Assembly: GCA_945903265.1 (NCBI GenBank)
Contig: CAMDNQ010000002.1
Coordinates: forward strand, 1-64,000
Reading direction: 5' to 3'
DNA: 64,000 nucleotides
From: Candidatus Sulfopaludibacter sp. SbA3
GTDB taxonomy: Bacteria > Acidobacteriota > Vicinamibacteria > Vicinamibacterales > UBA2999
Shown: in pieces, positions 37,966-62,089 of the stretch
Position numbering within the stretch: position 1 is the first letter of the stretch
Layout: every line of letters begins with the position of its first letter
The notes under the pieces: model-generated
Databases searched by the model: none
The model's input: only the letters and a program-made list of their open reading frames with translations
What the model was told of the DNA's origin: nothing
Position numbers and translations under genes: made by a program

Positions 37966-38096
37966 AGAACCTCCTGTATCGACGTGACGATAGCTTGGCG
38001 ACAGATCGCGACGAGGGAACGAAGAAGCCGACCGATGCGATGGGTTATGAAGGAAAGGAAACCGAGGGGAAGATAAGCGAAAACCCCCAAAACCAC

Positions 38097-38136
38097 AACT
38101 CCCAACTCCCAATCGCAAAATTGGGAGTTGGGAGCT
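38097..38136 (-). terminator. 17-bp hairpin between the two receptor genes
   Basis: Left arm AACTCCCAACTCCCAAT and right arm ATTGGGAGTTGGGAGCT pair at 16 of 17 positions around a six-base loop. On the minus strand it follows the second receptor gene, and GTGGTTTTGGGGG comes after it. The A+T-richer composition differs from the neighbourhood. The arms are themselves tandem TGGGAGT repeats. Confidence 0.6.
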
Positions 38137-38158
38137 GGGAATTGAGCGTTGTGGTGGT

Positions 38159-41050
38159 CTAGAACGTCACGCGGAAGCCGAACTGCATGCTCCGGAACTG
38201 CCCGTTCTCCGGCTGGTTGTAGTCCGCACGGCCCTCTTCCGTGACCAGGTTGAAGTTGGTCGCGTTGAAGACGTTGAACACTTCGGCGATCAGGTCGATG
38301 CCCGTACGGCCGCCGAGCGGCACGCGCTGCTGCAGTCGCAGGTCCATCCGGTTTTCATTCGGCTGGATGAAGCTGTTCTTCTCGACGATGGTCCCGTTCG
38401 GACGGAGCCGGCCGCTGAACGCCGCGCCGGTGGCGCGCAGGTCGCCGCCGTAGAACGTGTTGGCGCGGTTACCCGAGCCGTGATACACGAGACCGCTTAC
38501 CTGGAATCCGCGTCCCACTTCATAGATGCCGTTGAACACGAAGCGGTGACGCTGGTCTTCCGCGGAGAGCGCCCATTCGCCGCCGAGGTCTGCCGCGGTC
38601 GCGAAGGACACCGGCACGAACGTGTTCGTCGCCGGATCACCCGTGAAGGGCGGGGAGTCCGACTCCCACAGCCAGCCGAGCGTGTAGGTCGCCGACGCCT
38701 GCCACCGGTTCGCCATCCGCTTCGTGAAGCCGGTCTGGAGGCCGCGATATTCCGACTTGCCCTCGCGGGTCAACAGCGAGATGTTGCCCCAGGCCGGGAA
38801 CGGCCGGTTGGCGACGACGTTGAACGGGAGGTTCGCGCCGGTCGCCGGGTTGTACGAGAGGTTGACGTTGTCGATGATGTCCTTCTCGTTCATCCCCTTG
38901 TTGAACACGAAGTCCGCCTCGAGCGCCATCGTCGCACCGAACTGGTGCGCGAAGCCGATCGAGTTCTGGAAGCTGCTGCCCAGATCCGTCGAGAACCGCT
39001 CCGCCGAGACGAGCTCGTTCAGGGAGTTCTGGAGACAGCCCGCCCGGTTGCCGTTGTTGTGGCAGAAGAGCGACTGCGCCTCGGCAAACGTCGGCACCGG
39101 ACGGCCGTTGAACGGGTCGGCCGCGAAGTTCCACCGGCTGTCGTTGGCCACCTGGATCACAGCCACGAGGCTGTTGCCGACCGTCCAGAGCGTGTCCGAC
39201 GTGATCGGGTCGTAGTAGTAGAGACCCGAGCCGCCGCGCATGACCGTGCGATCGCTGAACTGATACGCGAAGCCGACACGCGGCTGGTAGTTGTCGGTGT
39301 CGTTGGGACGGCCGGCCGGCAGGAACGGCGGCACGGCAACGTCCTGCGCGCTCGAGTTCTTGCTGAGATCCCAGCGCACACCGAGGTTCAGCGTCAGGCG
39401 ATCGCTGATCTGCCAGTCGTCCTGCATCCAGACGCCCCACTTCGGCTGCACGTAGTCGAGGGTGAAGTCGCCGACGCCAATGCGGTACGTCCGCGTGATG
39501 GACGACAGTGCCGCGAAGTTCCACGTGTCGACGTTGAACGGATCCGGCAGGATCGCCTCGAGATTCGCCGGGCGCGGGCCGCCGCGCGCGTCGATCTCAC
39601 CCGCCGCGTTGCGGCGGTTGAAGCTGTTCTCGTCGCGGTGCAGGTACTCGACACCGGTGCGCACGTCGTGACGCCCTTTGGCTTCGTACGACAGCGTCAG
39701 GTCTTCACGGAAGCTGAACACGTCCTGCGCGCGGGTGCGCGGCCAGTTGGCGTTCGGCGTGATGTCGAAGCCGGTGAAGCGGATGCGCGGCGAGCCGGTC
39801 GTCGTCCCGTTGCGCGCGTCCCAGTGATTGGTCCACGACGTGAGACCGCCCTGGTCGAACCCGAACTCAGAGTAGCCGACCTTGAGCTCACTGACGATCG
39901 TGTTGTTGAACACCTGCGTCAGCTGACCGAGGACTTCGCGGCTCTTCTCGTCGGAGAACCCTGTGCCGGCCGGGTGATTGTTGTTCCCTACGCCGAATGG
40001 ATCGAAGCGGCGTCCCTCGTGCCACTTCGTCATGATGCGGTTGTTCGGCGACAGCTGATAGTCGAGACGGGCGCCACCCATCTTGATCGCTTCCTTGCCG
40101 CTCAGCGTCACGTTGAACGCCGGATACGGCGTGCGGAAGATGCTCGTCTTCGGCGCGCGCTCGTACTCGAAATTCCCGAAGTAGTGCAGACGATCGCGAA
40201 CGAGCGGTCCGCCGAGCGTGCCGCTCAGCTGCTGGTTGCTCATCGGCAGCACGACGCCCACGACCGGATCCTCGGCGTTGAACTTGTCATCGCGGAAGTT
40301 CGCGCGGAACAGCCCGTTCATCGTGTTCGAGCCGGACCGTGTAATGGCTTTTACCTGCACGCCCGAGGACCGGCCCATCGTCGCGTCGAACCGGTTCGAG
40401 ATGAACTGGAACTCGGCGATTGAGTCCTGGCTGTAACGCGGCTGCACGCCGGTGCCCAGGTCCTGCGTGATCTGCTGGCCGTCGATGTGGAGCTGGAACT
40501 CGCGCACCTCACCGCCGTTGCGATCCGGCAGCGGCTCGTTCTGCTCACCGGGGGTCGTGCGGCTGCCAGGCGCGAGCATCGCCAGGGCCATCCAGTTGCG
40601 GCCCTGCACGGGCAGCTCCTGAACCTGCGACGGGTCGATGTTGCCACCGAGGCTCGAGGTGTTCACTTCGATCAGCGGCGCTTCGGCCGTGACCGTCACG
40701 GTCTCCTGAATCGTCGAGGGCGCGAGCTGGAGGTTGACCCCGAGCGTCTCACCAACCAGCAGTCTGATGCCGGTCCGCTGGACGGTGGTGAACCCCTGCA
40801 ACTCCGCGGTGACGCGGTAGGCGCCAACACGAACCGGCATGCGGTACGAGCCGGTCCCGTCCGTGACCGCCACGAACGAGTTGCCGGTCGCTTCGTTGAC
40901 CGCTGTCACGGTGACGCCCGGCAGCACGCCGCCGGTGCTATCCGTCACGGTTCCGCTGAGCGCCGCATCCTGCGCGTAGGCCGCAACCGGCAACGCGGCA
41001 AGTGCCAAACAGAGAAGCAGGAGCACCCGCTTCACGAAACTACCTGTCAT
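38159..41050 (-). CDS. Oar-like TonB-dependent receptor (copy 2)
   Basis: 963 aa with the same layout as the neighbouring receptor: signal peptide, carboxypeptidase-regulatory-like domain (LSGTVTDSTGGVLPGVTVTA), plug with QVQELPVQGRNWM, beta-barrel, terminal GFRVTF. A good sigma-70-like promoter and AGGAGG precede the ATG at 41050. The high similarity of the first ~200 residues of the two copies, against more divergent barrels, points to duplication followed by ligand specialisation. Confidence 0.9.
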   Translation of the reverse strand: MTGSFVKRVLLLLCLALAALPVAAYAQDAALSGTVTDSTGGVLPGVTVTAVNEATGNSFVAVTDGTGSYRMPVRVGAYRVTAELQGFTTVQRTGIRLLVGETLGVNLQLAPSTIQETVTVTAEAPLIEVNTSSLGGNIDPSQVQELPVQGRNWMALAMLAPGSRTTPGEQNEPLPDRNGGEVREFQLHIDGQQITQDLGTGVQPRYSQDSIAEFQFISNRFDATMGRSSGVQVKAITRSGSNTMNGLFRANFRDDKFNAEDPVVGVVLPMSNQQLSGTLGGPLVRDRLHYFGNFEYERAPKTSIFRTPYPAFNVTLSGKEAIKMGGARLDYQLSPNNRIMTKWHEGRRFDPFGVGNNNHPAGTGFSDEKSREVLGQLTQVFNNTIVSELKVGYSEFGFDQGGLTSWTNHWDARNGTTTGSPRIRFTGFDITPNANWPRTRAQDVFSFREDLTLSYEAKGRHDVRTGVEYLHRDENSFNRRNAAGEIDARGGPRPANLEAILPDPFNVDTWNFAALSSITRTYRIGVGDFTLDYVQPKWGVWMQDDWQISDRLTLNLGVRWDLSKNSSAQDVAVPPFLPAGRPNDTDNYQPRVGFAYQFSDRTVMRGGSGLYYYDPITSDTLWTVGNSLVAVIQVANDSRWNFAADPFNGRPVPTFAEAQSLFCHNNGNRAGCLQNSLNELVSAERFSTDLGSSFQNSIGFAHQFGATMALEADFVFNKGMNEKDIIDNVNLSYNPATGANLPFNVVANRPFPAWGNISLLTREGKSEYRGLQTGFTKRMANRWQASATYTLGWLWESDSPPFTGDPATNTFVPVSFATAADLGGEWALSAEDQRHRFVFNGIYEVGRGFQVSGLVYHGSGNRANTFYGGDLRATGAAFSGRLRPNGTIVEKNSFIQPNENRMDLRLQQRVPLGGRTGIDLIAEVFNVFNATNFNLVTEEGRADYNQPENGQFRSMQFGFRVTF

Positions 41051-48524: not shown

Positions 48525-49625
48525 TTACACGCCCCCCCGACCGCCTCGGCCCCCCGGGCCCGCGAGCGCGAATTCGATCTCGCCGTCGGCCTTCACCGCC
48601 GGCTTCGCCCAGGTCATAGTGCCCTTGAGCGTGCTCGCCGGAGCCGAGAGCGTCACGGTGAAGACCTGCCGATCGCCGGCCACCAGGCTCGGAATCTTCC
48701 AGGCCGCCACGTCCGCCTTGGCTTCTTCGCTGTGATGGACACCCTGGTATCCGTTGCCGGTGGCGCTCACGAGCGTCACTCCAGCCGGAAGCGCCACCTG
48801 CACCGTGATGCCTTCAGTCGTAATGCCCTTGCCCTTGACCGCGGTGTTGATCACTTCGACGGTGTACGCGCGAGCCGCAGGTGTCGGCTCGGCCGGCGTG
48901 ATGCGTCCCCGCAGGACGGGCAGGTACAGCCCGATATCGTTCATCCAGGCCCACATTTCCTTCAGCGTCGCCTCCGGCAGCCGCGAGGGCGAGTAATTGC
49001 CCATGCGGATGCGGTTCCGGCCGGGAGGCCCCGACGGGAGGGGCGTCAGCGGCTGCAGCGATCGGTCGATCTGCGCCCAGTGCTCGCGCATCGCGTTTGT
49101 GTGGTCATAGACCTGACGCTTGAACCAGTCAAAGTCGCCGCTGACTTCCGCGGCGCCGTGGCGCGGCGTCTCGAACGTCGCGCCGTGGCACTGCGCGCAG
49201 CCCACAATCGAAATGGCCAGCTGCTGGCCACGGGGCGCGCCCTCGGGGAGCGGCGTGCGCCAGGCCAGCGGTTTGGCGCCCGCCGGAATGGTCGCGAAGT
49301 ACGCCACCATGTCCGCGATTTCCTGGTCGGTCAGCTCCGACTCCGGATACGCCGGCATGCGAGCCAGGGGATTGCGCACGTAGGCCCGGAACCGCTCGAA
49401 CGTCAGCCGGCCACCCGCGAGCGCCGGGCCGAACGCCCCTTGGCCTTCGACGCCGTGGCAGTTCGTGCAGGATGTGTTGCCAAAGGTGTAGTGCAGCTTG
49501 CCCGCTGCCGCATCACCCGCGGGCGCCGTCGCGCCCTGAGGAGCGGTCTGCCCTGCGCCGACCCCCGTCTGCGCGATCGCCGTCACCGCCACAAACACGC
49601 CGACGCCGAGCATGACTCTGCGCAT
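48525..49625 (-). CDS. secreted diheme cytochrome c with C-terminal beta domain
   Basis: 366 aa. The signal peptide is followed by two c-type domains with heme motifs CTNCH and CAQCH. A beta-sandwich-like C-terminal domain (TVEVINTAVKGKGITTEGIT...) of DUF1775/YcnI-like appearance then ends in a Gly/Arg-rich tail. AGGAG stands 8 bases before the ATG at 49625; an earlier ATG at 49631 is too close to it. It lies between the C-family gene and the membrane proteins, so it is the natural electron shuttle of this cluster. Confidence 0.8.
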   Translation of the reverse strand: MRRVMLGVGVFVAVTAIAQTGVGAGQTAPQGATAPAGDAAAGKLHYTFGNTSCTNCHGVEGQGAFGPALAGGRLTFERFRAYVRNPLARMPAYPESELTDQEIADMVAYFATIPAGAKPLAWRTPLPEGAPRGQQLAISIVGCAQCHGATFETPRHGAAEVSGDFDWFKRQVYDHTNAMREHWAQIDRSLQPLTPLPSGPPGRNRIRMGNYSPSRLPEATLKEMWAWMNDIGLYLPVLRGRITPAEPTPAARAYTVEVINTAVKGKGITTEGITVQVALPAGVTLVSATGNGYQGVHHSEEAKADVAAWKIPSLVAGDRQVFTVTLSAPASTLKGTMTWAKPAVKADGEIEFALAGPGGRGGRGGV

Positions 49626-49640
49626 TCGCATCACTCCTGC

Positions 49641-50420
49641 TTATCTCGGTTCATCGGCGCGGCACGGGGTCGGGTCCCATCCCGCGCGATCGCCGATCTT
49701 CTTGAAGGGATAGGTCGTGGCGTACGGTTGTGTGAGGTACCGCGGATCCGTCACGATCGACGTGACCACCAGCCACGAGTCGCCGCTCGGCTCGGTAAAG
49801 GTTTCGAAGAACTCCTCGAGGCGCGCGTTCTCGCTGTACGGGACGCCGTTCTTGCGGAGGTACCCCGGCCGCATGTTGGTGGTCACCACGCGAAGCTGAC
49901 CGGTCGCGCGTCCGCCGCCGCGGCCGCCGAGACCTTGCCACTGCGCGACAGACCGCCCCTGCCAGTCGCTCGCCGCCCCAGCCGGTGCCGTCGCGCCGGC
50001 GGCGCCGAAGCGCAGCAGACGCGTCTGCGTTCCCGAGTCCGTATCAAGTTGCAGTGTGTTGTCATCCGCCCAGTGGATGCGCAGCCGGCCGGGAATGCGC
50101 ATGACACCGGCGGCGCCGTACGCCCGGCACTCGGCCCCCTCGGCCTTGTCTTTTGCCGGATCCCAGGCATCGGCCGTCTTCCGCCCGTCGGGGGTGAGCG
50201 GCAGCATCGCGTAGTCCCCTTTGGGCGGCATCATCATGCGCAGATGCCAGTGCTCGGTCACGACCGCCACCCAGTACCCGGCGAAGTCTCTCGGCGCCGC
50301 GGCACGGGCGCTGGCGGGAGCGGTCCCGCCGCGGCCCTGCGCGTCCGCGTCAGTCTGAACGAGCAGCGCGGCCGCGAGCAGCGCGGCCGCCCAGCGGCCC
50401 GAGAAGGGTACGCGAGCCAA
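49641..50420 (-). CDS. secreted protein of unknown family C (copy 1)
   Basis: 259 aa with a signal peptide. It opens with TTG that follows directly on the family-A stop (TAATTG). Shared with the paralogue at 58280: GYWVAVV.EHW, a PPKGDY/PSKGDF segment, AWDPAKD, CRAYGA.GVMR.P.RLRI, DNTLQLDTD.G.QTRL.RFG and GYLRKNGVPYS with WDPTPC near the end. One conserved CRAYG cysteine and one C-terminal cysteine could form a disulfide. A GGRGGG linker splits the two halves. Function unknown; periplasmic and all-beta in appearance. Confidence 0.75.
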   Translation of the reverse strand: MARVPFSGRWAAALLAAALLVQTDADAQGRGGTAPASARAAAPRDFAGYWVAVVTEHWHLRMMMPPKGDYAMLPLTPDGRKTADAWDPAKDKAEGAECRAYGAAGVMRIPGRLRIHWADDNTLQLDTDSGTQTRLLRFGAAGATAPAGAASDWQGRSVAQWQGLGGRGGGRATGQLRVVTTNMRPGYLRKNGVPYSENARLEEFFETFTEPSGDSWLVVTSIVTDPRYLTQPYATTYPFKKIGDRAGWDPTPCRADEPR

Positions 50421-50807
50421 TTACTCGACCCGGCCCTGCCATGACCAGCCGTCGGCAGGCCGTTTCATGCTGACAATCAGGAGACGGGGCGACGACTGAT
50501 CACGCGCCGGTTCGCCTGAGATGACGAGCTTGTCTCCGGGTCGGAGCGTCGTGCGTGTCAGGTTCGCGCTCGCGAGCTGGTTGATGGAGCCCCATTCGAG
50601 CGCCCACGTCTTCGTCACTCCGTCCTTCTCCGTCACGTCGACGCGCAGAAACGAATGCGGATTGCGCCAGACGAACTCCTTGACCACGCCCTCGATCTGC
50701 ACCTTCTTCGAGGAGTCATAGGTCGCGCCGAACGAGTGGTGCGCGACGGCGCGTCCGGTCCCCGCCAGCACCAGGCCGGCCGCGAGCAACAGGACCATGC
50801 GTTTCAT
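50421..50807 (-). CDS. DUF6152-like secreted protein, family A (copy 1)
   Basis: 128 aa with a signal peptide that ends at AHHSF, the family hallmark. The small beta-barrel reads ATYDSSKKVQIEGVVKEFVW, NPHSFLRVDV, WALEWGSINQLAS, TLRPGDKLVISGEPARD. It resembles an OB-fold. Paralogues are at 56198 and 61700. Starts at the ATG at 50807 with AGGAGA; the stop abuts the C gene and the start follows the B gene. The HH at the mature N-terminus could bind copper or another metal, which is inference. Confidence 0.82.
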   Translation of the reverse strand: MKRMVLLLAAGLVLAGTGRAVAHHSFGATYDSSKKVQIEGVVKEFVWRNPHSFLRVDVTEKDGVTKTWALEWGSINQLASANLTRTTLRPGDKLVISGEPARDQSSPRLLIVSMKRPADGWSWQGRVE

Positions 50808-50821
50808 CAGACGGTCTCCTT

Positions 50822-51850
50822 TCAGGACTTGCCGAGACTGCGGAAGACGGCGTCCACGAACATCTCCGTCGTCCACGTCCCCGTCGTGCTTCCGTACCGC
50901 TTATCGTACTCCCGCGTCGGCCGCGCCGCCTTGACCTGGGCCAGCGTCATCCCCTTCCTGGCCATGGCCGCAACCCGGTCCCGGATGATCGTGATCATGT
51001 CGCGGTAGTAGACGACTTCGGCATGATCCGCGATGCGGCCGTGGGCCGGTATGACCAGTGTCCCGCCCTCGGCATTCCTCGCCGGGACGGTGACGTCGAT
51101 CAGCCCGTTGAGGGAGTCGACGAGTGTCTCGATGCTGCCGCCCGCCGCGGTGTCGATCCGAGGGTATCCCGTCAAATCGAGGAGCGCGCCGGCGCTCACC
51201 ACGTCCGAGCGGCGGAACAGCACGATGCTGTTGCCATCTGTGTTCGACGGGCGGTGAATGACGACGACGGGCTCGTCGTTGAAATAGAGGCGCTTCTGAG
51301 GAATCGAGAACGTGTTGTCGGGCCACCCGAGCTCGGGGATCTTCGGGGTCCCGCCCGTCGGGCCTGCGAGCCGATGGAACATCGTGTAGTACGCGATGAC
51401 CGACGCCTTCGTGATGTCGAGCGCCCCCTGCGGTCCCGCGGTGTAGTTCGGCTCGCGGAACGGAATGATCTCGCCGGTGTCGGCAATCGCCGCGTTGCCA
51501 CCGACGTGGTCCTCGAATTCGGTGGTGTTGACGATGTAGCGCAGCGGGCGCGTCGAAATCGTCTTCATCGCCTCGAGCACCTTGCCGCTCATCGCGGCGG
51601 TGCCCGTATCGACGAGCAGGATGCCGTCCGTCCCCGACTGGACGGTGATGTTCGCCCCGGCGCCGATGATGACGTGGACGTTGCCGCGCACCGGCAGCAC
51701 CTGAAGGTCGCCGGGCGCGGGGCCCTGGATGCGCGGCGGCCAGACCGCCTGGCGGCCGGCGGCCGGACCTTGCGAGAAGACCACATGCGACGAACCCAGG
51801 AGGCCGGCGAGAAGGACGCCGGCGACGGCGGCAATCCGCAGGGAGCTCAC
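50822..51850 (-). CDS. metallo-beta-lactamase-fold protein with eroded metal site, family B (copy 1)
   Basis: 342 aa, signal peptide, GTG start overlapping the D-family stop (GTGA). The MBL fold is clear (ILLVDTGTAAMS, then the NTTEFEDHVGGN loop), but the HxHxDH motif reads T110-E-F112-E-D114-H115. The next histidine is Asn203 in PSNTDGN, the following aspartate is replaced in SAGALLD, and the last histidine (His270, PAHGR) is kept. At most three ligands remain, so it is probably non-catalytic or uses another chemistry. The conserved tail has GTWTTEMFVDAVF. Confidence 0.75.
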   Translation of the reverse strand: MSSLRIAAVAGVLLAGLLGSSHVVFSQGPAAGRQAVWPPRIQGPAPGDLQVLPVRGNVHVIIGAGANITVQSGTDGILLVDTGTAAMSGKVLEAMKTISTRPLRYIVNTTEFEDHVGGNAAIADTGEIIPFREPNYTAGPQGALDITKASVIAYYTMFHRLAGPTGGTPKIPELGWPDNTFSIPQKRLYFNDEPVVVIHRPSNTDGNSIVLFRRSDVVSAGALLDLTGYPRIDTAAGGSIETLVDSLNGLIDVTVPARNAEGGTLVIPAHGRIADHAEVVYYRDMITIIRDRVAAMARKGMTLAQVKAARPTREYDKRYGSTTGTWTTEMFVDAVFRSLGKS

Positions 51851-52767
51851 TCCACCGACCCCGGAGGCGCCGGCACCGTCGGCTTGGGCATCCCCTTCAT
51901 CTTCGTGACGAATTCCGGATACATCGTCTGCGCGCCCCCGAGGCGCGCGTCGTACGGCGTCGCGTAGCCGTCGGCCAGCTTGGGATTCAGGCCGGGCAGC
52001 GGACTCTCACCCGGGAGGAAATGCGGCACCGTGCCACGCGGCACCGCCGTCTCGGTCGCTTCCTCGCAGGGATAGGGCGCCATCGCCATGTTGGGATCGT
52101 TGATCCACATCATCGTGGTACGGATGTACGGCTCCGCCAGATAGACCGGGTCGTACAGGATGCTCGTCGCCTGGAGGTAATCGCCCATCCGGCGCCACCG
52201 CGTCCGCACGACCGACTGATCGCTGCGCATGAGCCCGCCGCGCCGGATGTAGGCCTCCTTGAGATGCGTGGTCGTGACCACCAGCGTGTCGCCGTCCCAT
52301 TCGCCGGTCGAGAAGCCGCTCCAGGTGTGGAGCGTATTCGCCGGTGGGTGCGGGCGTCCGTCCATCCAGATGGTCGTTTCCTGCTCCATCATGTTGACGT
52401 GCCCGCGGTAGGCGACGATCTTCTGCGTGTTGCGATCGATCTCGGGCCACAAGCGGAGCGGCGACAGCGGCCCTTCGAGGGAGTAATCCCACGCGTGGGG
52501 ACGGCAGACGAACTCCGCGACGTCGAAGTCATCCGGCGACCAGCTGTCGGCGCGCCACCGGCCTTCCTGGCTCACGGGGACGCCGGCCGTATCACCGGTC
52601 ATCCCGCTGCCGTCCTGATTGCGCGGAAGCGGGCGCCACGATCCCGAGAGCTCGACCTGCGCGGCGGCCGGCGGCACGGCGCACGCCAGCACCAGCGCGG
52701 CGATTGCCGAAATGCGCCGGGCGCCCGTACGCCCCCGAACCGCTCCCCCTGAATCCATGGCGCCCAT
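51847..52767 (-). CDS. secreted protein of unknown family D (copy 1)
   Basis: 306 aa with an N-terminal signal peptide after a short charged stretch (ATG at 52767, alternative ATG 52758). The family signature is IWMDGRPHPPANTLHTWSGF, then STGEWDGDTLVVTTTHLKEA, then YIRRGG and DPVYLAEPYI. Paralogues are at 59063 and 60885. Mostly beta, with conserved tryptophans, Asp and His; no known catalytic motif. First gene of the D-B-A-C-cytochrome run, coupled to B by a 4-base overlap and following the TonB receptor stop by three bases. Confidence 0.75.
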   Translation of the reverse strand: MGAMDSGGAVRGRTGARRISAIAALVLACAVPPAAAQVELSGSWRPLPRNQDGSGMTGDTAGVPVSQEGRWRADSWSPDDFDVAEFVCRPHAWDYSLEGPLSPLRLWPEIDRNTQKIVAYRGHVNMMEQETTIWMDGRPHPPANTLHTWSGFSTGEWDGDTLVVTTTHLKEAYIRRGGLMRSDQSVVRTRWRRMGDYLQATSILYDPVYLAEPYIRTTMMWINDPNMAMAPYPCEEATETAVPRGTVPHFLPGESPLPGLNPKLADGYATPYDARLGGAQTMYPEFVTKMKGMPKPTVPAPPGSVE

Positions 52768-52770
52768 ATT

Positions 52771-55700
52771 CTAGAACGAGTACTTCAGCGCGAACTGCAT
52801 GATTCGCGGATCGTCGGCCGTGAGGTACCTGCCGAAATTCGCGTCGCTGTAGTTCGTGACGGGCGACTGATTGTTCCCCGGCAGCGGCCGGAACCAGTTG
52901 AAGGTGTTGAACGCCTCGACGCGCGCCTCGATCCGGTGCGTGCCCAGGAAGCCGAACCCGCGCACGAGCGAGAAATCCAGCTGCCTCCGGGCCATCCCGA
53001 GGAACGCGTTGCGGCCGGAGTTGCCGTGGGTGCCGAGCGCCGGCTGCGCGAACGCCGCGGGGTTGAACCAGCTGTTGATCGTCTTCTCTCCGAACGGATT
53101 GTCGAGGATCTGGTTCACGCGCTGGGCGGTCGCCTGCACCCCGGTGAGCGCGCGATCGGCCCCGGTGCTGATGGTGAGCCAGTCTCCCGACGCCGCGCGG
53201 AAGATGCCCGACAGTCTCCACCCGGACGCGATCATGCGGACCGCGGTGTTGCTGAACTCCGGTGACGCCACGGTCGCCGTCATGTTGAAAATATGCGTCG
53301 GCGAACTGGCGCAGTGCCCCTCGTCCTGATCGAAGATCGCCTGCATGTCGGCCGGCGGGTTGATGAGGGACACCGGAATCATGTACCCCGTCCCGACGTT
53401 CAGCGGGGTCCCGCCCTGGTTGATGAGGCCGCGACAGGTGGACCAGGTGTAGTTCGCGTTGGTGCTGAGGCCGCTGACCGACCGGCGCTGAAACGACAGT
53501 TGCAGGCCGTGGTACCGCTGCCAGCCGGCGTCGGTCACCCAGTCGAGATACCCGATGTACTGGCCGACGGCCGGATTGTTCTGGGTGATCTCGCGGCGCA
53601 CGTCGAGCGGAGCCGCCGAGCAGTTCGGATACGTCTGCGTGCCCCCGGGCGCCGCAGGATTGCGCAGCGTGCACGGACCGGTCGGCGATACTCCTGCCGG
53701 AATGGTGCCGGGGTTGCCGGTGACGTCGCCCCACACGTTCATCAGATAGTTGCCGAGGTAGTTGGCGGACACGCCGATGTTGTCGCCGATCTGATGCTGA
53801 ACACCGACGTTCCAGCTGTGCACGCGCGTCGTTTCCAGATCCTTGGGCGCCTGGATGAGGAGCGCGTACGACGGGAACGCGGAGGTGGCGCTGGGCGAGT
53901 ACGGGTACGGGTTGGTCCGCCCCGCCGCGCGCCAGGGATCATCAAGCGCGTTCGGTCCCAGATTGATCAACCGCTGCTCGAGGCCGAAGGGCGGCGCCTG
54001 CGCGGCGTCAAAGTAGAACTCACCGGCAATGAAGTTGCTGTTCATGCCGTAGCCGGCGCGCACCGACGTGCGGCCGTCGCCCTCCGGATCCCACGACATC
54101 CCTACGCGCGGCTGGACGTTCGTCCATTCGGTGTACATCCCGGCCTGAGTCGGGAAATCCGCGTCGCCCGGATAGGTGAATCCGGGAGGCGCCTGCTGGA
54201 ACACCTGGCTGCGCTGCCCTGCCACGTAGCGATCGCGGTCGAAGTTGTAGATCGCGCCGTTCTGGTGCTGCTGCGGGAACCAGGGCTCCCATCGAAGTCC
54301 ATAGTTCACCGTCACGTTCGGCGACATCCGCCAGGTATCCTGGGCGTAGAGGCCGAAGTACTTCTGCTTGATGTCGAGCTTGAAAGGCGGTGCCTGGCGG
54401 AACTCGAACACACGGCCGGTCATGAAATCGGCCATCGCAAGCCCCGTCGCAAAGCCATTGAAGCTGAAGGAGCCGGGGGAACGCACGTTCGAGTTGGTCT
54501 TCCAGTCGTTGAGCGCCACCGATCCCCCGATCCCCCACTGGTGGTTTCCGCGCACCAGCGTCAGATCGTCGGAGAACGCGTAGGTGTTCGGCCGGTACCA
54601 CGAATCGGTCTCGGTGTTGGTGTTGACGGAAAAGCCCCCCGTCACGCTGATCAGCATGATTTCAGGGACGTGCGTATGGATATTGACGCCGACGTCCTCG
54701 GGCCCGAACATGTCGGCGTGCGTGCGGTGCACGTCGGTGCGATTCGCCGTAAAGCGGATGTTGTTGACGACGGTGTTGCTCAACACCATCGTGTCACCGA
54801 CCACCAGCGAGTTCGAGCCGCTGTCGCGCCCACCGGCACCCAGGCCGGACGCGGACAGCACGTTGCCGTCACCATTGAGGAACGCCGGATCCCAGAACGT
54901 CGTCGTCCGGAAGTAGCGCGCGAAGAGCGAGTGGTTCTGCGTGATCTGGTAGTCGATGCGCCCGATCAGCTGTGACTCCTCCGGCTTGGTCTGCCGCGAG
55001 AACGTGATGCGGCCGCACGGATCGGTCGTCGTGGGCAGGCGCCGCGCAATGGCGATGGCCGCCGGACTGAGCTGCGAAGGCGCGATGCGGTTGTCGGCGA
55101 ACGGCGCCGGGAGATTCAGGTTGCCCTGGGCGCGGCAGGCGGCAGACGCCACCTGCGTGAAATCACCGGCCAGCATCGCCGCTGTGGGGACGAATGTAAT
55201 CTGGTCGGCCGGCGTCTGCGTGGCGCGCGTCCCCTGATAGGCACCGAAGAAAAAGATGCGGTCCTGCGCAATCGGGCCGCCGAGCGTGCCGCCGAACTGA
55301 TTGCGGACGAGACCGTCGCTGCGCCGCTTGCCCGTGGCGGGGTTGACCCCGGCAAACCGGCTCGTGGCGTTGAACCGGTGGTGGCGCGCGAACTCGAACA
55401 GATCGCCGTGCAACAGGTTGGTCCCGGCCTTGGTGACGACGTTCACCGTGCCGCTCCCCTGGCGGCCGTTCTGCGCGTTCTGCGAGCTGGTCTCCACGCG
55501 GAATTCCTGCAGCGCGTCGGGAAACGGCAGCGGCAGCCCCAGTCCGTCGAGGACGTTGTTGTGCATGGCGCCGTCAAGGAGGTAGCTGACGGCGAACGGC
55601 TGCCCCCCGGTGATCGCGATGCCGCGGCTGGTGGTCATGCTGCGGCTCGTCGGCGCGCCGGTATCCGCGGCCGCGCCGGCCATGACGATGAGCATGACCG

Positions 55701-56157
55701 GATTGCGCCCCTCGAGCGGCAGGGCTTCCACCTGCTCGTTGTCGATCACCGACCCAATCGCGGGATTGCGCGTCTCGACGAGAGGCGCGGCGGCTTCGAC
55801 CGACACCGTTTCCTGGAGGCTTCCGAGCTCCAGCCTCACCGGAATGACCGGGTTGCTGTTCACCTGCAGCACGATGCCGGTTTGCGCGTAGCTGCGGAAG
55901 CCCGCAAGCGAAGCCTCGAGCCGGTAGGGACCGAGCGGAAGATTGAGCAGCGAGTACGCGCCCGCGGCGTCGCTGACGACCTCCCGCCGCGCGCCGGTAT
56001 CTATCTGCGTGGCCACGATCGTCACGCCAGGGAGGACGGCCCCGCTCGAATCGGCGACCGTGCCGTTGATTTGTGCTGTCGCCTGGGCCCACGCCGGGGA
56101 ACTCCCCAGAAGTATCGTCAGGACGACGCCGGCGAACCCGCGCAAGACGCGCTTCAT
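52771..56157 (-). CDS. Oar-like TonB-dependent receptor (copy 3)
   Basis: 1128 aa, larger than the other two receptors. Signal peptide, carboxypeptidase-regulatory-like domain (INGTVADSSGAVLPGVTIVA), plug with QVEALPLEGRNPVML, long beta-barrel ending ALKYSF. AGGAGG precedes the ATG at 56157. It is the head of the D-B-A-C-cytochrome unit and directly follows the A'-gene. It is therefore the best candidate for the outer-membrane uptake component of the cassette. Confidence 0.9.
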   Translation of the reverse strand: MKRVLRGFAGVVLTILLGSSPAWAQATAQINGTVADSSGAVLPGVTIVATQIDTGARREVVSDAAGAYSLLNLPLGPYRLEASLAGFRSYAQTGIVLQVNSNPVIPVRLELGSLQETVSVEAAAPLVETRNPAIGSVIDNEQVEALPLEGRNPVMLIVMAGAAADTGAPTSRSMTTSRGIAITGGQPFAVSYLLDGAMHNNVLDGLGLPLPFPDALQEFRVETSSQNAQNGRQGSGTVNVVTKAGTNLLHGDLFEFARHHRFNATSRFAGVNPATGKRRSDGLVRNQFGGTLGGPIAQDRIFFFGAYQGTRATQTPADQITFVPTAAMLAGDFTQVASAACRAQGNLNLPAPFADNRIAPSQLSPAAIAIARRLPTTTDPCGRITFSRQTKPEESQLIGRIDYQITQNHSLFARYFRTTTFWDPAFLNGDGNVLSASGLGAGGRDSGSNSLVVGDTMVLSNTVVNNIRFTANRTDVHRTHADMFGPEDVGVNIHTHVPEIMLISVTGGFSVNTNTETDSWYRPNTYAFSDDLTLVRGNHQWGIGGSVALNDWKTNSNVRSPGSFSFNGFATGLAMADFMTGRVFEFRQAPPFKLDIKQKYFGLYAQDTWRMSPNVTVNYGLRWEPWFPQQHQNGAIYNFDRDRYVAGQRSQVFQQAPPGFTYPGDADFPTQAGMYTEWTNVQPRVGMSWDPEGDGRTSVRAGYGMNSNFIAGEFYFDAAQAPPFGLEQRLINLGPNALDDPWRAAGRTNPYPYSPSATSAFPSYALLIQAPKDLETTRVHSWNVGVQHQIGDNIGVSANYLGNYLMNVWGDVTGNPGTIPAGVSPTGPCTLRNPAAPGGTQTYPNCSAAPLDVRREITQNNPAVGQYIGYLDWVTDAGWQRYHGLQLSFQRRSVSGLSTNANYTWSTCRGLINQGGTPLNVGTGYMIPVSLINPPADMQAIFDQDEGHCASSPTHIFNMTATVASPEFSNTAVRMIASGWRLSGIFRAASGDWLTISTGADRALTGVQATAQRVNQILDNPFGEKTINSWFNPAAFAQPALGTHGNSGRNAFLGMARRQLDFSLVRGFGFLGTHRIEARVEAFNTFNWFRPLPGNNQSPVTNYSDANFGRYLTADDPRIMQFALKYSF

Positions 56158-56197: not shown

Positions 56198-56590
56198 TCA
56201 GTCGAATTTTTCGTCGGCGAGCATGCCCCAGCTCCAGCCGTCGGCCGGTCGCTTGAACGTGAGCAGGCGGACGCGGTGATCCGCGGTGTTGCGTCCCGGA
56301 TTGCCGCTGATCACGACCTTGTCCCCCGCCTTGAGCGTGTCGCGCGAGACGCGTCCGCTCAGCTGCGACGGGGATCCCCACTCCACGACGTACCGCACCT
56401 TGGTCCCGTCGGGCTGGGCGACCATGACGTGCACGAATGAGTGGGGGCTGCGCAGCAGGAACTGCACGATCTCCCCTTCAATCGTCACGGACTTGTCTTC
56501 CAGGTAGGTCGCGGCGAACGAGTGATGCGCCAGCGGCGCCGCCCCCGTGAGCGTCGCGATCATGAGCGCCGCACAGAAAGCAATTTTCAT
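56198..56590 (-). CDS. DUF6152-like secreted protein, family A (copy 2)
   Basis: 130 aa. The signal peptide ends in LAHHSF, followed by ATYLEDKSVTIEGEIVQFLL, SPHSFVHVMV, VEWGSPSQLSG and TLKAGDKVVISGNPGRN; the end KRPADGWSWG matches copy 1. The ATG shares its A with the stop of the PEBP gene (TGATG), so the two are translationally coupled. The stop lies 41 bases before the TonB receptor start. Confidence 0.8.
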   Translation of the reverse strand: MKIAFCAALMIATLTGAAPLAHHSFAATYLEDKSVTIEGEIVQFLLRSPHSFVHVMVAQPDGTKVRYVVEWGSPSQLSGRVSRDTLKAGDKVVISGNPGRNTADHRVRLLTFKRPADGWSWGMLADEKFD

Positions 56591-57192
56591 CAGAACACCG
56601 CCCATCCCTGATTCGGCAGCCGCTCGAGCACCGCGTAGTAGGTGCTGGTGCCGATGATGTGTCCATCCATGGCCTTGAAGACATCGGGCCGCGTCGCGGC
56701 CGCCGGTAGCGCGAGCAAGGTGTCGAGCGCGTAAATCTTGAACTGGTAGTGGAGCGGGCCCGCGCCTGGCGGCGCGCAGGGAGGCCGGTATCCCACGATG
56801 CCTCGGCCGCCCGTCACCTGCCGGCTTCCGTCCGGCAGCTCCGCGCCAAGCGGGGCACTGGCCGGTAGTGAAGTCGTGGTCGGCGGGAGATTCCACCGGA
56901 CCCAGAAGAACTCGTCGGCCAGGCCGCGCATCGGGTGGTTGTCCGGCCCGTTCACCATCAGGACAAAGCTGACGGTCTCCTTCGGCGCGTTGGCCCACTG
57001 CAGCGGAGGGGACCCCCACTTCGCCCCGTCCGCATAGCAGGACGACCCGGCGGGCAGACGGGCGCCATCGGCAAACGCGCTACTCGAGAGGCGCAGCCGG
57101 GGCGATTCCGGAGGACGGGGAGCCTGCTGCGCAGCGGCAACGGCCAGCGTGAGAACGAACGGAGAGACAACCGCGAGCCAACGTACGCGCAT
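56590..57192 (-). CDS. secreted YbhB/YbcL-family PEBP-like protein
   Basis: 200 aa with a signal peptide ([20 protein letters not shown]). Phosphatidylethanolamine-binding-protein fold motifs: [20 protein letters not shown] and FFWVRWNLP, and [20 protein letters not shown] followed by YALD. Bacterial members bind small anionic ligands; catalysis is not established. The presence of a signal peptide puts it in the periplasm. It diverges from the B'-C'-D' run with 86 bases between. Confidence 0.82.
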
Positions 57193-57278
57193 CTGCACTC
57201 CTGTCTGCCGCCGTTTGGGCAGCGCGAATCTACCACAACTGCCTGCCACCGGCGGAACTGGGTTATCCTCTCGCGACG

Positions 57279-58280
57279 ATGACTTCCCGGCTCGCCCGGC
57301 GCCTCTCGCCGCGATGGATGGCGATGGCCGCGCTCCTCGCTGCGGCCACGCAGGTACAGCCCGCCGCGGCGCAGCGTCCCACGGACGCGGCGGTGTTCGA
57401 AACGCTCCAGATCCGCTCCAACGTCTTCGTCATCTTCGGCGCCGGCGGGAACATCACCGTCCATGTCGGCGAGGATGGCCTGGTCCTGGTCGACAGCGGA
57501 TCCGCATCGCGCGGGAGCGACGTGCTGGCAGCGGTGCGGCGCATCAGCGGACGGCCGATCCGCTACATCATCAACACGGGCCCGGACGAAGACCATGTCG
57601 GCGGCAATGAGACGCTGGCGCGCGCCGGCGCGTCGCTCATGGATGACACCTTCGCCGACGATCCGCGCGCGGCCGTCGTCTCACACGAGAACGTGCTGCT
57701 GCGCCTGAGCGGGGCGACCGGTCCCGCGGCGCTGCCGTCGGGCGCGTGGCCGAGCGAGACATTCACCTCCCGGTACCGGTCGCTTTACGTCAATGACGAC
57801 CCCATCCAGATCATCCGGCAGCTCGGCGCGCACTCGGACGGTGACGCGATGGTGCATTTCCGGCGCGCCGACGTGATTGCCACCGGCGACGTGCTCGATC
57901 TGCGGCATTTTCCCGTGATCGATCCCACCCGAGGCGGATCTATCCAGGGCGAGCTGGCCGCGTTGAACCGGCTGCTCGATCTCGTCGTTCCCGCCATGCC
58001 GCTCGTCCTGAAGGATGCGCGGACGCTGGTGGTGCCCGGCCACGGACGCGTCGCGGATTACGCGGAACTGGTCGACTACCGCGACACGCTAACCGTCATC
58101 CGCAACATCATCGCGGACCAGATCCAGAAGGGGATGACGCTGGAACAGGTCAGGAACGCCAACCCCGCGGCCGGCTACCGCGCCCGCTGGGGGCGTGACT
58201 CGGGGCCGTGGACCACCGACATGTTCGTCGAGGCCGTCTACAACGGGTTGAAGAATCCGCCCGCGGGATCGGAGCCGTGA
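57279..58280 (+). CDS. metallo-beta-lactamase-fold protein, half metal site, family B (copy 2)
   Basis: 333 aa, signal peptide. Compared with canonical HxHxDH, the loop reads G101-P-D103-E-D105-H106, so the first two histidines are gone. His185 (AHSDGD), Asp204 (TGDVLD) and His255 (PGHGR) remain, which leaves one complete site of the Zn2 type. Copy 1 has lost more. The tail [13 protein letters not shown] is shared with copy 1. It starts the plus-strand B'-C'-D' operon, and its stop overlaps the next ATG (TGATG). Confidence 0.78.
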
Positions 58281-59062
58281 TGCGCGCACCTGTCCTTCGT
58301 GCCGTCGTCCGCACCGTCGTCTGGCTCGGGCTCCTCTGGGCGGCGGCCGGCCCCGACGCGGCGCTGGCCCAGGGCCGCGCCGCGGGCCCGGCTCCACAGA
58401 CCCCAAAAGCCACAGCGCCGATCGACCTCACCGGCAACTGGGTGGCCGTCATTTCCGAGGACTGGCGCTGGCGGATGGTGACGCCGTCAAAGGGAGATTT
58501 CCCCAGCATCCCGCTGAACATGAAGGGGCAGGATGTCGCTGAAGCGTGGGACCCGGCAAAGGATGAATCGGCCGGCGAGCAGTGCCGCGCGTACGGCGCG
58601 CCCGGCGTGATGCGGGGACCGACGCGCCTGCGCATCAGCTGGCAGGATGACACCACCCTGAAGCTCGAGACCGACTACGGCATGCAGACCCGTCTCTTCC
58701 GCTTCGGCGCGACCGCCCCGGCGGCGGCGCAGCGAAGCTGGCAGGGCACGTCGCGCGCCGAATGGATCGCGACGACCGGCGGGCGTGGAGGCGGCGCCCG
58801 GCGCTTCGGTTACATGAAATCGGTCACCACGAACCTGCGGCCGGGATACCTGCGCAAGAACGGCGTCCCGTACAGCGCGTCCGCCGTCTTCACCGAACAG
58901 TGGGACGTGCACACGCGTGCCAACGGCATGCGCTACCTGGTCATCACGAACATCGTCGACGATCCGGTCTACCTCCAGTCGCCCTGGATCACCGCGCTCC
59001 ACTTCGAGCCGGAACGCGACGCGAGCAAGTGGGACCCGACGCCGTGTGATGCGAGGTTTTAG
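58280..59062 (+). CDS. secreted protein of unknown family C (copy 2)
   Basis: 260 aa with a signal peptide ([17 protein letters not shown]...ALAQG). It aligns along its length with the 259-aa protein at 49641: NWVAVISEDW, SKGDFPSIPL, AWDPAKDES, CRAYGAPGVMRGPTRLRI, DYGMQTRLFRFG, GYLRKNGVPYS, WDPTPC. The ATG shares one base with the B' stop, and the stop directly abuts the D' ATG. Function unknown. Confidence 0.78.
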   Translation: MRAPVLRAVVRTVVWLGLLWAAAGPDAALAQGRAAGPAPQTPKATAPIDLTGNWVAVISEDWRWRMVTPSKGDFPSIPLNMKGQDVAEAWDPAKDESAGEQCRAYGAPGVMRGPTRLRISWQDDTTLKLETDYGMQTRLFRFGATAPAAAQRSWQGTSRAEWIATTGGRGGGARRFGYMKSVTTNLRPGYLRKNGVPYSASAVFTEQWDVHTRANGMRYLVITNIVDDPVYLQSPWITALHFEPERDASKWDPTPCDARF

Positions 59063-60064
59063 ATGAGATACATCTGTGCGGTCCTGGGCGTGCTCCTCCT
59101 GTCCGCGGCTCCCGCTTCCGCGCAAGCGGAGCTGAGCGGCACCTATATCCCGCTGATGCACGAGGACTACATCGAGCGTGGTCCAGGGTCGTTTCTTGGC
59201 GATTACACCGGGGTGCCGCTGACCGACGAGGGTCGCGCCAAGGCTCTCCTCTACACGTCGAACCAGCCGTCACAGTACGAGCGCCAGTGCCTCGCCCAGT
59301 CGGCCGGCATCTTCCAGTATCGTCCGGTCGCCATCCGGTTCTTCAAGGAATGGAATGACGAGGGACGCGTGACCGCCTGGGTACTCGGCGGCGACAACCT
59401 GCGCGGCGACATCCGCATCTGGATGGACGGACGGCCGCACCCGTCACCGAACGCCCAGCACACCGAGGGCGGGTTTGCCACCGGTGCTTGGGAAGGCGAT
59501 ACGCTGGTCGCGCACGTGACGCACCTGAAGACGGCGTGGATCCGCCGCGGGGTCGGCATCCCGGCGAGCGATCACACCACGATCGACATGTACTTCACGC
59601 GCCGTGAGAACCTGCTGACCATCACGACGATTCAGGAAGATCCGTATTACCTGACGCAGCCGCACGTCGTCAGCCGCGTCTTCGAGTGGAATCCGCGCGC
59701 GGCCGACGTGACGCGCCAGACGTGCAACACCGCCAACGAGATTCCCTCGCTCGAGGACACCGGCCAGGTGCCGCACAACATGCCGGGACAGAACCCCGAA
59801 GCGGATTACATGGTGCGGACGTTCAACCTGCCGAAGGACGCGGCGATGGGATTCGCGGAGACGCTCTATCCGGAGTACCGCAGGAAGATTCGCAGCCTCT
59901 ACACCCTGCCCGTGGCGTGCGATGAGCGGGCGCCCGGTTACTGCTGCGGCTGGATCGAACGGCAGGGACTGCCGGGCGGGGCCCCCAGCCTGACCTGCAA
60001 CGACGGCGGGTTCGGCGGCCTTGGCCCGCGCGGCCGCCGGACTCCCGCCGCCACAGAACGATAG
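59063..60064 (+). CDS. secreted protein of unknown family D (copy 2)
   Basis: 333 aa with a signal peptide ending ASAQAE. The signature IWMDGRPHPSPNAQHTEGGF is followed by ATGAWEGDTLVAHVTHLKTA, WIRRG and DPYYLTQPHVV. Six or more cysteines, including a C-terminal CC pair in GYCCGW, are absent from copy 1, so this copy is probably disulfide-rich. A Gly/Arg-rich tail ends it. Third gene of the B'-C'-D' run; its stop touches the convergent methyltransferase stop. Confidence 0.78.
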   Translation: MRYICAVLGVLLLSAAPASAQAELSGTYIPLMHEDYIERGPGSFLGDYTGVPLTDEGRAKALLYTSNQPSQYERQCLAQSAGIFQYRPVAIRFFKEWNDEGRVTAWVLGGDNLRGDIRIWMDGRPHPSPNAQHTEGGFATGAWEGDTLVAHVTHLKTAWIRRGVGIPASDHTTIDMYFTRRENLLTITTIQEDPYYLTQPHVVSRVFEWNPRAADVTRQTCNTANEIPSLEDTGQVPHNMPGQNPEADYMVRTFNLPKDAAMGFAETLYPEYRRKIRSLYTLPVACDERAPGYCCGWIERQGLPGGAPSLTCNDGGFGGLGPRGRRTPAATER

Positions 60065-60884: not shown

Positions 60885-61703
60885 TTATCTGGGCAATCCG
60901 CCAAATGTGGGACCCCGGTATTCCGGAATTGTCTGAACTCCGTACTGGTTGTTCTCCTGGCAGATGTACTCCAGCAGTTCATCCCCAGGCGTCGTCGTCG
61001 CCATGAACGTGACGGTGAACGGACGCGTATAGGCGCCCGGATCGTCGATCGTGACCTTGTTCTCCATCTGGCCGAGATTCAGCCGCGTCCACCGTTCGAC
61101 GGTGTGCAGCTGTTCGCTGTGCGGGTGCCCGCGCCGATCGAACCAGAATTTGTCGTTGTAGCCGACCGTATCGATGACCAGCGTGTCCTTCTCCCACCAG
61201 CCGATCGAGTGGCCGTACCACGTCGGGTCGAGTTCCGCCGGATGCTTGCGGCCGTCCATGAAGATCTGCCGGAAGCTGTGAATGTTCCCTTCCTGGAGGA
61301 TGAACATGTGCGTCGGCGGCTTGTGCGTGTAGTTCTGGACGAAACGGTACGGGAACGGCGTCACGCGCGGCACGCCCATCGGGAGGCAGGCGTTGTGCGG
61401 TTCCTGCGTCTCGTCTCGCGTGGCCATGAGTGCTCTGGCCCAGGGCAGCAGGATCTCCTGGAGCTCGCCCTTCCGGAGCCCGCCCTGCGCTTCGATGTCC
61501 TGAACCGGACCGCCGCCGACCCACGTGGCATCCATCAGGTCGACCATGCCGTTCGGCAGACGCGGCACCGGACCCTTGGGCGGGCCTTCGCGCGTCACCG
61601 CGGCAATCGGCTTCTGCGAGGGGTCGTACTGCGTCGCCGCGGGCTGCACCAGCAGCGGGGCGATCAGTGCGGCCGCGCCGACCGCCACTCTGCAACGCGT
61701 CAT
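60885..61703 (-). CDS. secreted protein of unknown family D (copy 3, divergent)
   Basis: 272 aa with a signal peptide. The core IFMDGRKHPAELDPTWYGHS is followed by IGWWEKDTLVIDTVGYNDKF, then RRGHPHSEQLHTVERW. It keeps the MDGR.HP, TW.G.S.G.W and DTLV positions of the family but is otherwise the most diverged copy. Its ATG overlaps the A'' stop (ATGA), so an A-D pair is translated together. Ends 10 bases before the methyltransferase start. Confidence 0.72.
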   Translation of the reverse strand: MTRCRVAVGAAALIAPLLVQPAATQYDPSQKPIAAVTREGPPKGPVPRLPNGMVDLMDATWVGGGPVQDIEAQGGLRKGELQEILLPWARALMATRDETQEPHNACLPMGVPRVTPFPYRFVQNYTHKPPTHMFILQEGNIHSFRQIFMDGRKHPAELDPTWYGHSIGWWEKDTLVIDTVGYNDKFWFDRRGHPHSEQLHTVERWTRLNLGQMENKVTIDDPGAYTRPFTVTFMATTTPGDELLEYICQENNQYGVQTIPEYRGPTFGGLPR

Positions 61704-62089
61704 GGCTCTTCGTTGATCCCGGACAGCACCTTCCGTCCGTCGGCGAGCGTGACCGAGCGCGCGTTCGCCCCCGCGACGTTGGTCCTGGCGCCAATGCCTT
61801 CGATCGTGACGACGTCGCCGGCTTTCACCGTGCGGCCGGTCCACCCCTGACGAACCAGCGCGCTGCGCGCGGTCAGCTCGAGGTTCCAGTTCACGACGCT
61901 GCCGTCGGGCTGCCTGACATCGACGTACAGGCGCGAATGCGGATTGGTCCACTCGACCCTGGTGACGGTTCCGGTGATCGTGATCGGCCTGGCGGGATCG
62001 TATTCAGCGGTGACGGAGTGATGCGCCGCCAGTGAACCGGCGCCGACGAGAACGACGCCGGCCAGTACCGCCCCGAGCTTCATTCCCAT
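61700..62089 (-). CDS. DUF6152-like secreted protein, family A (copy 3)
   Basis: 129 aa with GGAGG five bases before the ATG at 62089. The signal peptide ends in LAAHHSV; then AEYDPARPITITGTVTRVEW, NPHSRLYVDV, WNLELTARSALVRQGW and TVKAGDVVTIEG. This copy is nearest to the consensus of the family. Translationally coupled to the D'' gene by ATGA. Confidence 0.83.
   Translation of the reverse strand: MGMKLGAVLAGVVLVGAGSLAAHHSVTAEYDPARPITITGTVTRVEWTNPHSRLYVDVRQPDGSVVNWNLELTARSALVRQGWTGRTVKAGDVVTIEGIGARTNVAGANARSVTLADGRKVLSGINEEP

Follow-up and report, generated by a model that had tools for sequence, protein, structure and literature searches.

The window, the 64,000-nucleotide stretch of DNA analysed here, encodes an exported metallo-beta-lactamase (MBL)-fold protein of 342 amino acids, MBL1, in which the metal-1 half of the binuclear site is dismantled and the metal-2 residues Asp114, His115 and His270 are whole. 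Judging by its residues and those of its relatives, we hold the chances evenly balanced that MBL1 is a one-metal, metal-2-site protein of a module with two further proteins, A and B, and not a metal-free pseudoenzyme. The MBL cassette is a large, repeatedly duplicated gene set of soil and groundwater bacteria, and loss of the metal-1 half is common in its MBL family.

Metal ligands and fold of MBL1

MBL1 is encoded on the minus strand (50822..51850), its reading frame running 51850..50822 from a GTG start codon, and its N-terminus, read by eye, resembles a Sec signal peptide; a periplasmic location seems probable. The Pfam model Lactamase_B (PF00753) scored 28.3 bits against a cut-off of 22.7, which places the protein in the MBL fold. 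An AlphaFold2 model made from 40 input sequences had a mean pLDDT of 85.6, and a Foldseek search of the PDB with this model returned 550 matches at E <= 0.001, those listed being MBL-fold proteins, as were all of the matches listed when VIA-align compared the model with 999 chains.

Dinuclear MBL metallohydrolases carry His116, His118, Asp120, His121, His196, Asp221 and His263, of which Asp221 is the bridging ligand in other MBL hydrolases. Ligand columns are given here in BBL numbering, with the beta-lactamase ligand numbers of Table 1 in PMC2422870. MBL1 has three of the seven. At the HxHxDH position (51506..51523, minus strand) it reads T110-E-F112-E-D114-H115, so that the metal-1 histidines are gone and the metal-2 Asp and His are retained; N203 (51242..51244, minus strand) stands for His196, A222 (51185..51187, minus strand) for Asp221, and His263 is kept as H270 (51041..51043, minus strand). 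A preliminary description of the gene had listed these residues correctly (T110, F112, D114, H115, N203, A222 and H270) and had concluded that most metal ligands were lost. The losses are real, but that wording masks their pattern: they comprise the entire metal-1 site plus position 221, and the equivalents of Asp120, His121 and His263 all remain.

A sequencing error at the motif, which the same description had named as a possible objection, was rejected because independent assemblies carry TEFEDH too (L011/L157 and L012/L156), with TEFDDH in L013/L158. The A222 codon, GCG, is two base changes away from an Asp codon, and a single miscalled base therefore cannot explain it.

Ligand loss across the MBL family

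Relatives at E <= 1e-30 were found in 14 of 43 genomes of the window's GTDB family. A phylum-wide draw, in which the five best candidates per genome were scored, gave relatives at E <= 1e-40 in 6 of 396 genomes, four of them of the same family, and a scan of named genomes, from which the best 80 of 280 relatives were taken, added Acidobacteriota and some metagenome-assembled genomes (MAGs) labelled as Gammaproteobacteria. An A-MBL-DUF6152-B cassette also turned up in a MAG record titled Klebsiella pneumoniae (L221), a label that probably stems from misbinning or misnaming. Over all loci, 262 open reading frames (ORFs) matched the family profile, 206 were non-redundant, and the 194 scoring at least 280 bits were counted; five of the 12 non-redundant ORFs outside the counts, all five with seven ligands, served as the tree outgroup. 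Four of the 194 members have a gap at a ligand column, leaving 190 that could be scored.

All seven ligands are present in 50 of these 190 members. In 75 the full metal-1 set is missing and Asp120, His121, Asp221 and His263 are kept, in 59 both sets are altered, and in six metal-1 is kept with an altered metal-2 quartet; because sampling began from a degenerate query, the share of degenerate copies is no census. Residue by residue, the metal-1 ligands are retained in 63/193, 67/192 and 138/193 members, compared with 158-167/194 for those of metal-2. His116 and His118 vanish jointly (both present in 56 members, neither in 117, one only in 17). Copies with seven ligands make up 20/135 of the same-family set and 30/59 of the other loci. 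Other parts of the scaffold are more conserved than the metal site: the ligand columns rank from 75th to 222nd by entropy among 286 columns, and F212, P230, G238, T264 and G271 are invariant in 194/194 members. The commonest replacement of HxHxDH family-wide is SxDxDH, with Asp118 in 36 of the 70 members that have Ser116, a specific rather than a random change.

Copies per genome reach 28 after curation. These 28, from 30 search matches, lie in a single 4.2-Mb genome (G026), and three of them have all seven ligands. G018 and G023, two of the 14 genomes in which the family has copies, yielded no fully intact one, and in a third, G035, the sole candidate has a gap at a ligand column. Together with the loss of metal-1 in the sibling MBL2 (below), and within the limits of incomplete MAGs, this means that the data do not call for an intact catalytic partner.

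Evolution of the MBL1 clade

A FastTree phylogeny was built with the ligand columns left out (74 of its 196 inner branches starred, 51 open). On this tree at least 14 changes separate seven ligands from fewer, or 25 if only losses are allowed, and MBL1 sits in an 18-member clade with support 100. The preliminary description had proposed aligning homologues to see whether the ligand losses are conserved, and at metal-1 they are: His116 is kept in none of the 18, His118 in three and His196 in none, its place being taken by Asn in 16 and Thr in two. At metal-2, Asp120 is kept in 10 members with Glu in seven more, His121 in 13, Asp221 in 14 and His263 in 15. The same alignment contradicts the idea that a missing bridging aspartate is a family trait, as none of the other 17 members has Ala at 222 and three of them have Pro. 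The metal-1 losses are thus old and conserved, and A222 is private to MBL1.

The binding of two metals by MBL1 through substitute side chains is a further reading, to which we attach very little probability. In its favour, many paralogues show [S/T/N/G/Q]-x-D-x-D-H, in which the carboxylate at 118 could be a ligand, but the metal-1 positions of MBL1 are Thr, Phe and Asn, Phe112 cannot bind metal, and the 18-member clade has no conserved replacement ligand at the metal-1 columns.

The gene is under purifying selection, as had been claimed for it from its length and conserved C-terminus: dN/dS (Nei-Gojobori) is 0.18-0.21 against the five nearest relatives, inside the range of four pairs of intact copies (0.045-0.30), and simple decay of the gene is disfavoured on these values. 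MBL1 has nonetheless gathered 10 substitutions of its own, versus 2-5 in each of the other seven members of its eight-member subclade, and two of the 10, D222A and G269A (the latter adjoining H270), lie at the metal-2 site, where they may have reduced or changed the metal binding of this copy. Across the family, moreover, metal-2 is altered in 59/134 members without the full metal-1 set versus 6/56 with it (Fisher p 4.5e-6, a test that ignores phylogeny), which indicates that the metal-2 site is not sacred. Both observations fit a stepwise decay, in which an ancestral loss of metal-1 would now be followed by erosion of metal-2 in the MBL1 lineage under relaxed constraint. We regard this as unlikely, given the low dN/dS, the full-length frame and the retained operon. 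The same 59/134 also counts against the one-metal reading, as do the G269A change next to H270 and the loss of Asp221, which leaves MBL1 with three protein ligands.

Gene neighbourhood

MBL1 lies in a minus-strand gene order of PEBP, DUF6152, TonB-type receptor, A, MBL1, DUF6152, B and cytochrome c, next to a divergent plus-strand set of MBL2, B and A. Upstream of MBL1 are A (51847..52767), a TonB-dependent, Oar-type outer-membrane receptor with OMP_b-brl_4 and carboxypeptidase-regulatory domains (52771..56157), a second DUF6152 protein (56228..56584, the limits being those of the profile match) and a PEBP/YbhB-like protein (56590..57249). Downstream follow a DUF6152 protein (PF19649, E 1.2e-26; 50421..50807, start inferred, the listed ORF beginning at 50876), B (49641..50420) and a cytochrome c + DUF11 protein (48525..49634), the synteny of which is shared with several members of the MBL1 clade. 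All of these are on the minus strand. On the plus strand are MBL2, a sibling of MBL1 (57279..58280), and the B (58277..59062, start inferred, the listed ORF beginning at 58208) and A (59063..60064) proteins of the divergent cassette. Two more TonB-type receptor regions, each in two profile matches, lie at 35746-41023 in the window, and a weak A-like ORF at 60885-61952 (profile match 60921-61433), which has no Pfam match, adjoins a DUF6152 match at 61778-62077.

A and B form one homologous family (profile E about 1e-58). Within 5 kb of the MBL gene, A occurs in 178/194 and B in 139/194 loci, counting loci with contig ends or short flanks, and in 34/194 loci the A homologue is joined to the MBL N-terminus. 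By sequence, the A family had no PDB match to E 1 and the B family one, at an unconvincing E of 0.5, and comparison of A and B with Pfam gave just stray matches to single members. The model of A (pLDDT 81) resembles FABP, retinol-binding and SAHS barrels, with a best Foldseek E of 2.4e-4 (5z4g) and a best VIA-align Z of 9.2 over 112 residues, tied with many others, at a TM of about 0.28 by query length. From this model we propose, with moderate confidence, that A is a small-molecule-binding barrel of the calycin (FABP/lipocalin-like) type. With the A3 profile, the window's own genome gave 39 matches to the A/B barrels, many of them far from any MBL copy, indicating that the barrel family is larger than the cassette. 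Literature searches on DUF6152, MBL pseudoenzymes in Acidobacteria, MBL loss-of-metal paralogues and Acidobacteriota MBL with TonB found no paper on the cassette, and the part of the Solibacter paralogues paper (PMC3174227) that was covered has no word beginning with "lactamase".

Linkage of MBL1 and MBL2

The preliminary description had taken MBL1 for a possible pseudoenzyme partner of MBL2, which it called the better-preserved copy. MBL2 does keep His196, Asp221 and the metal-2 triad (ligand state GDDHHDH), but it reads GPDEDH at the motif, with both histidines of HxH gone. The partnership is supported as linkage: all 8 genomes with the MBL1 clade carry the MBL2 clade as well, versus 1/6 of the remaining genomes that have the family (p 0.003 over these 14, ignoring phylogeny and with clade counts assembled by hand), G034 (L044) has the same two-MBL locus as the window, and MBLs of both types also share a locus in G023 (L039) and in one more MAG (L166). 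MBL2 is, however, no intact catalytic partner.

This linkage bears on the chief rival reading, that MBL1 is a true pseudoenzyme that catalyses nothing, its role being to bind or scaffold its partners, either the A/B barrels or an MBL2-type paralogue. We think this improbable, though a serious contender. It would account for the loss of every metal-1 ligand and of Asp221 and for the co-occurrence of the two clades, and precedents for MBL-fold pseudoenzymes with an active partner are given in passages on INTS9 (PMC7980224) and on the cyanobacterial Flv1/Flv2 (PMC4390876). Set against it are the intact metal-2 triad, the Asp or Glu at 120 in 17/18 and the His at 263 in 15/18 clade members, the absence of metal-1 in the proposed partner itself, and a co-occurrence test that takes no account of phylogeny. 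As a default the pseudoenzyme is also hard to maintain when the retained residues are those that bind Zn2 in B3 beta-lactamases and also three of the four that hold the metal of mononuclear chlorothalonil dehalogenase (Chd). The reading is most plausible for the MBL1 allele itself, where position 221 is also lost.

A putative one-metal module

Under the one-metal reading that we prefer, D114, H115 and H270 would most likely hold a single metal ion, by analogy with Chd and the B3 Zn2 site. MBL1 would be a periplasmic protein, the MBL component of an A-MBL-B module in which A and B, as predicted small-molecule-binding barrels of the calycin type, would be supplied by the adjoining TonB-dependent receptor, and the MBL member might hydrolyse the ligand or hold it.

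More tentatively, and leaning somewhat towards doubt, we suggest that some acidobacterial genomes encode combinatorial periplasmic small-molecule modules (a TonB receptor, paired A/B calycin barrels and an MBL) whose MBL component would have a metal site free to evolve, from a dinuclear ancestor repeatedly down to a single metal at metal-2 and at times further to no metal, so that one cell could carry many paralogues that differ in chemistry or only bind. MBL ligand loss is usually met protein by protein; this family instead contains copies, many of them in the same genome, that grade from seven ligands down to none while the scaffold stays well conserved, and natural paralogues can therefore be compared to test whether half a binuclear site still makes an enzyme. 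The family also ties the MBL fold to the uncharacterised A/B barrels.

Comparison with known MBL-fold proteins

Membership of MBL1 in known groups was not supported by NCBIfam models. The beta-lactamase models that it matched gave 19-22 bits against cut-offs of 100-660 (bla_class_B_core 22 against 100), and those for quinoprotein relay metallohydrolase/SoxH-like proteins (TIGR04558 and TIGR04559) gave 44.6 bits each against 300 and 280. Subclass B2 beta-lactamases, entries that we take to be CphA and Sfh-I, rank near the top of the sequence-profile matches of MBL1. CphA is mono-zinc, according to the parts of PMC2422870 used here, and Table 1 of that paper gives Asp120, His121 and His263 as the Zn2 ligands of the B3 enzymes, exactly the triad that MBL1 retains. 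Unlike the B2 and B3 enzymes, MBL1 has a C-terminal helical extension.

The best structural match of the MBL1 model among those listed by VIA-align (999 chains) is Chd (6UXU; Z 28.2 over 265 residues, 3.0 A, 18% identity). Chd has the MBL fold and, in the sections of PMC12784990 consulted, one catalytic zinc on Asp116, His117, Asn216 and His257, which a profile alignment matches to D114, H115, A222 and H270 of MBL1; the index of the 6UXU chain, counted by eye, equals the published numbers minus 27 at Asp116, Asn216 and His257 alike. Its single zinc sits at metal-2, and its metal-1 positions read Ser/His/Gln, with Ser at His116 and Gln at His196. MBL1 thus matches the mononuclear metal-2 site of Chd at Asp120, His121 and His263; at position 221, where Chd keeps Asn as a fourth ligand and most of the MBL1 clade has Asp, it has Ala. 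Chd further differs in being a homodimer with an interface zinc. Chd, with one zinc and a partial metal-1 site, thus shows that enzyme activity in an MBL protein does not depend on a complete metal-1 site.

Second to 6UXU at Z 27.4, a tie by the VIA-align rule, is 8D2Z, an MBL-superfamily protein of Burkholderia cenocepacia that is of similar length and the PDB chain closest to MBL1 by sequence profile (E 2e-17). It retains HxH and has Val-Arg for Asp120/His121, making it a mirror-image half-site. INTS9/CPSF100 and Flv1/Flv2 resemble MBL1 as MBL-fold paralogues without canonical ligands, and in the material cited above they pair with a canonical paralogue. They belong to other subfamilies, whereas MBL1 keeps its metal-2 triad and is linked to a paralogue that likewise lacks metal-1.
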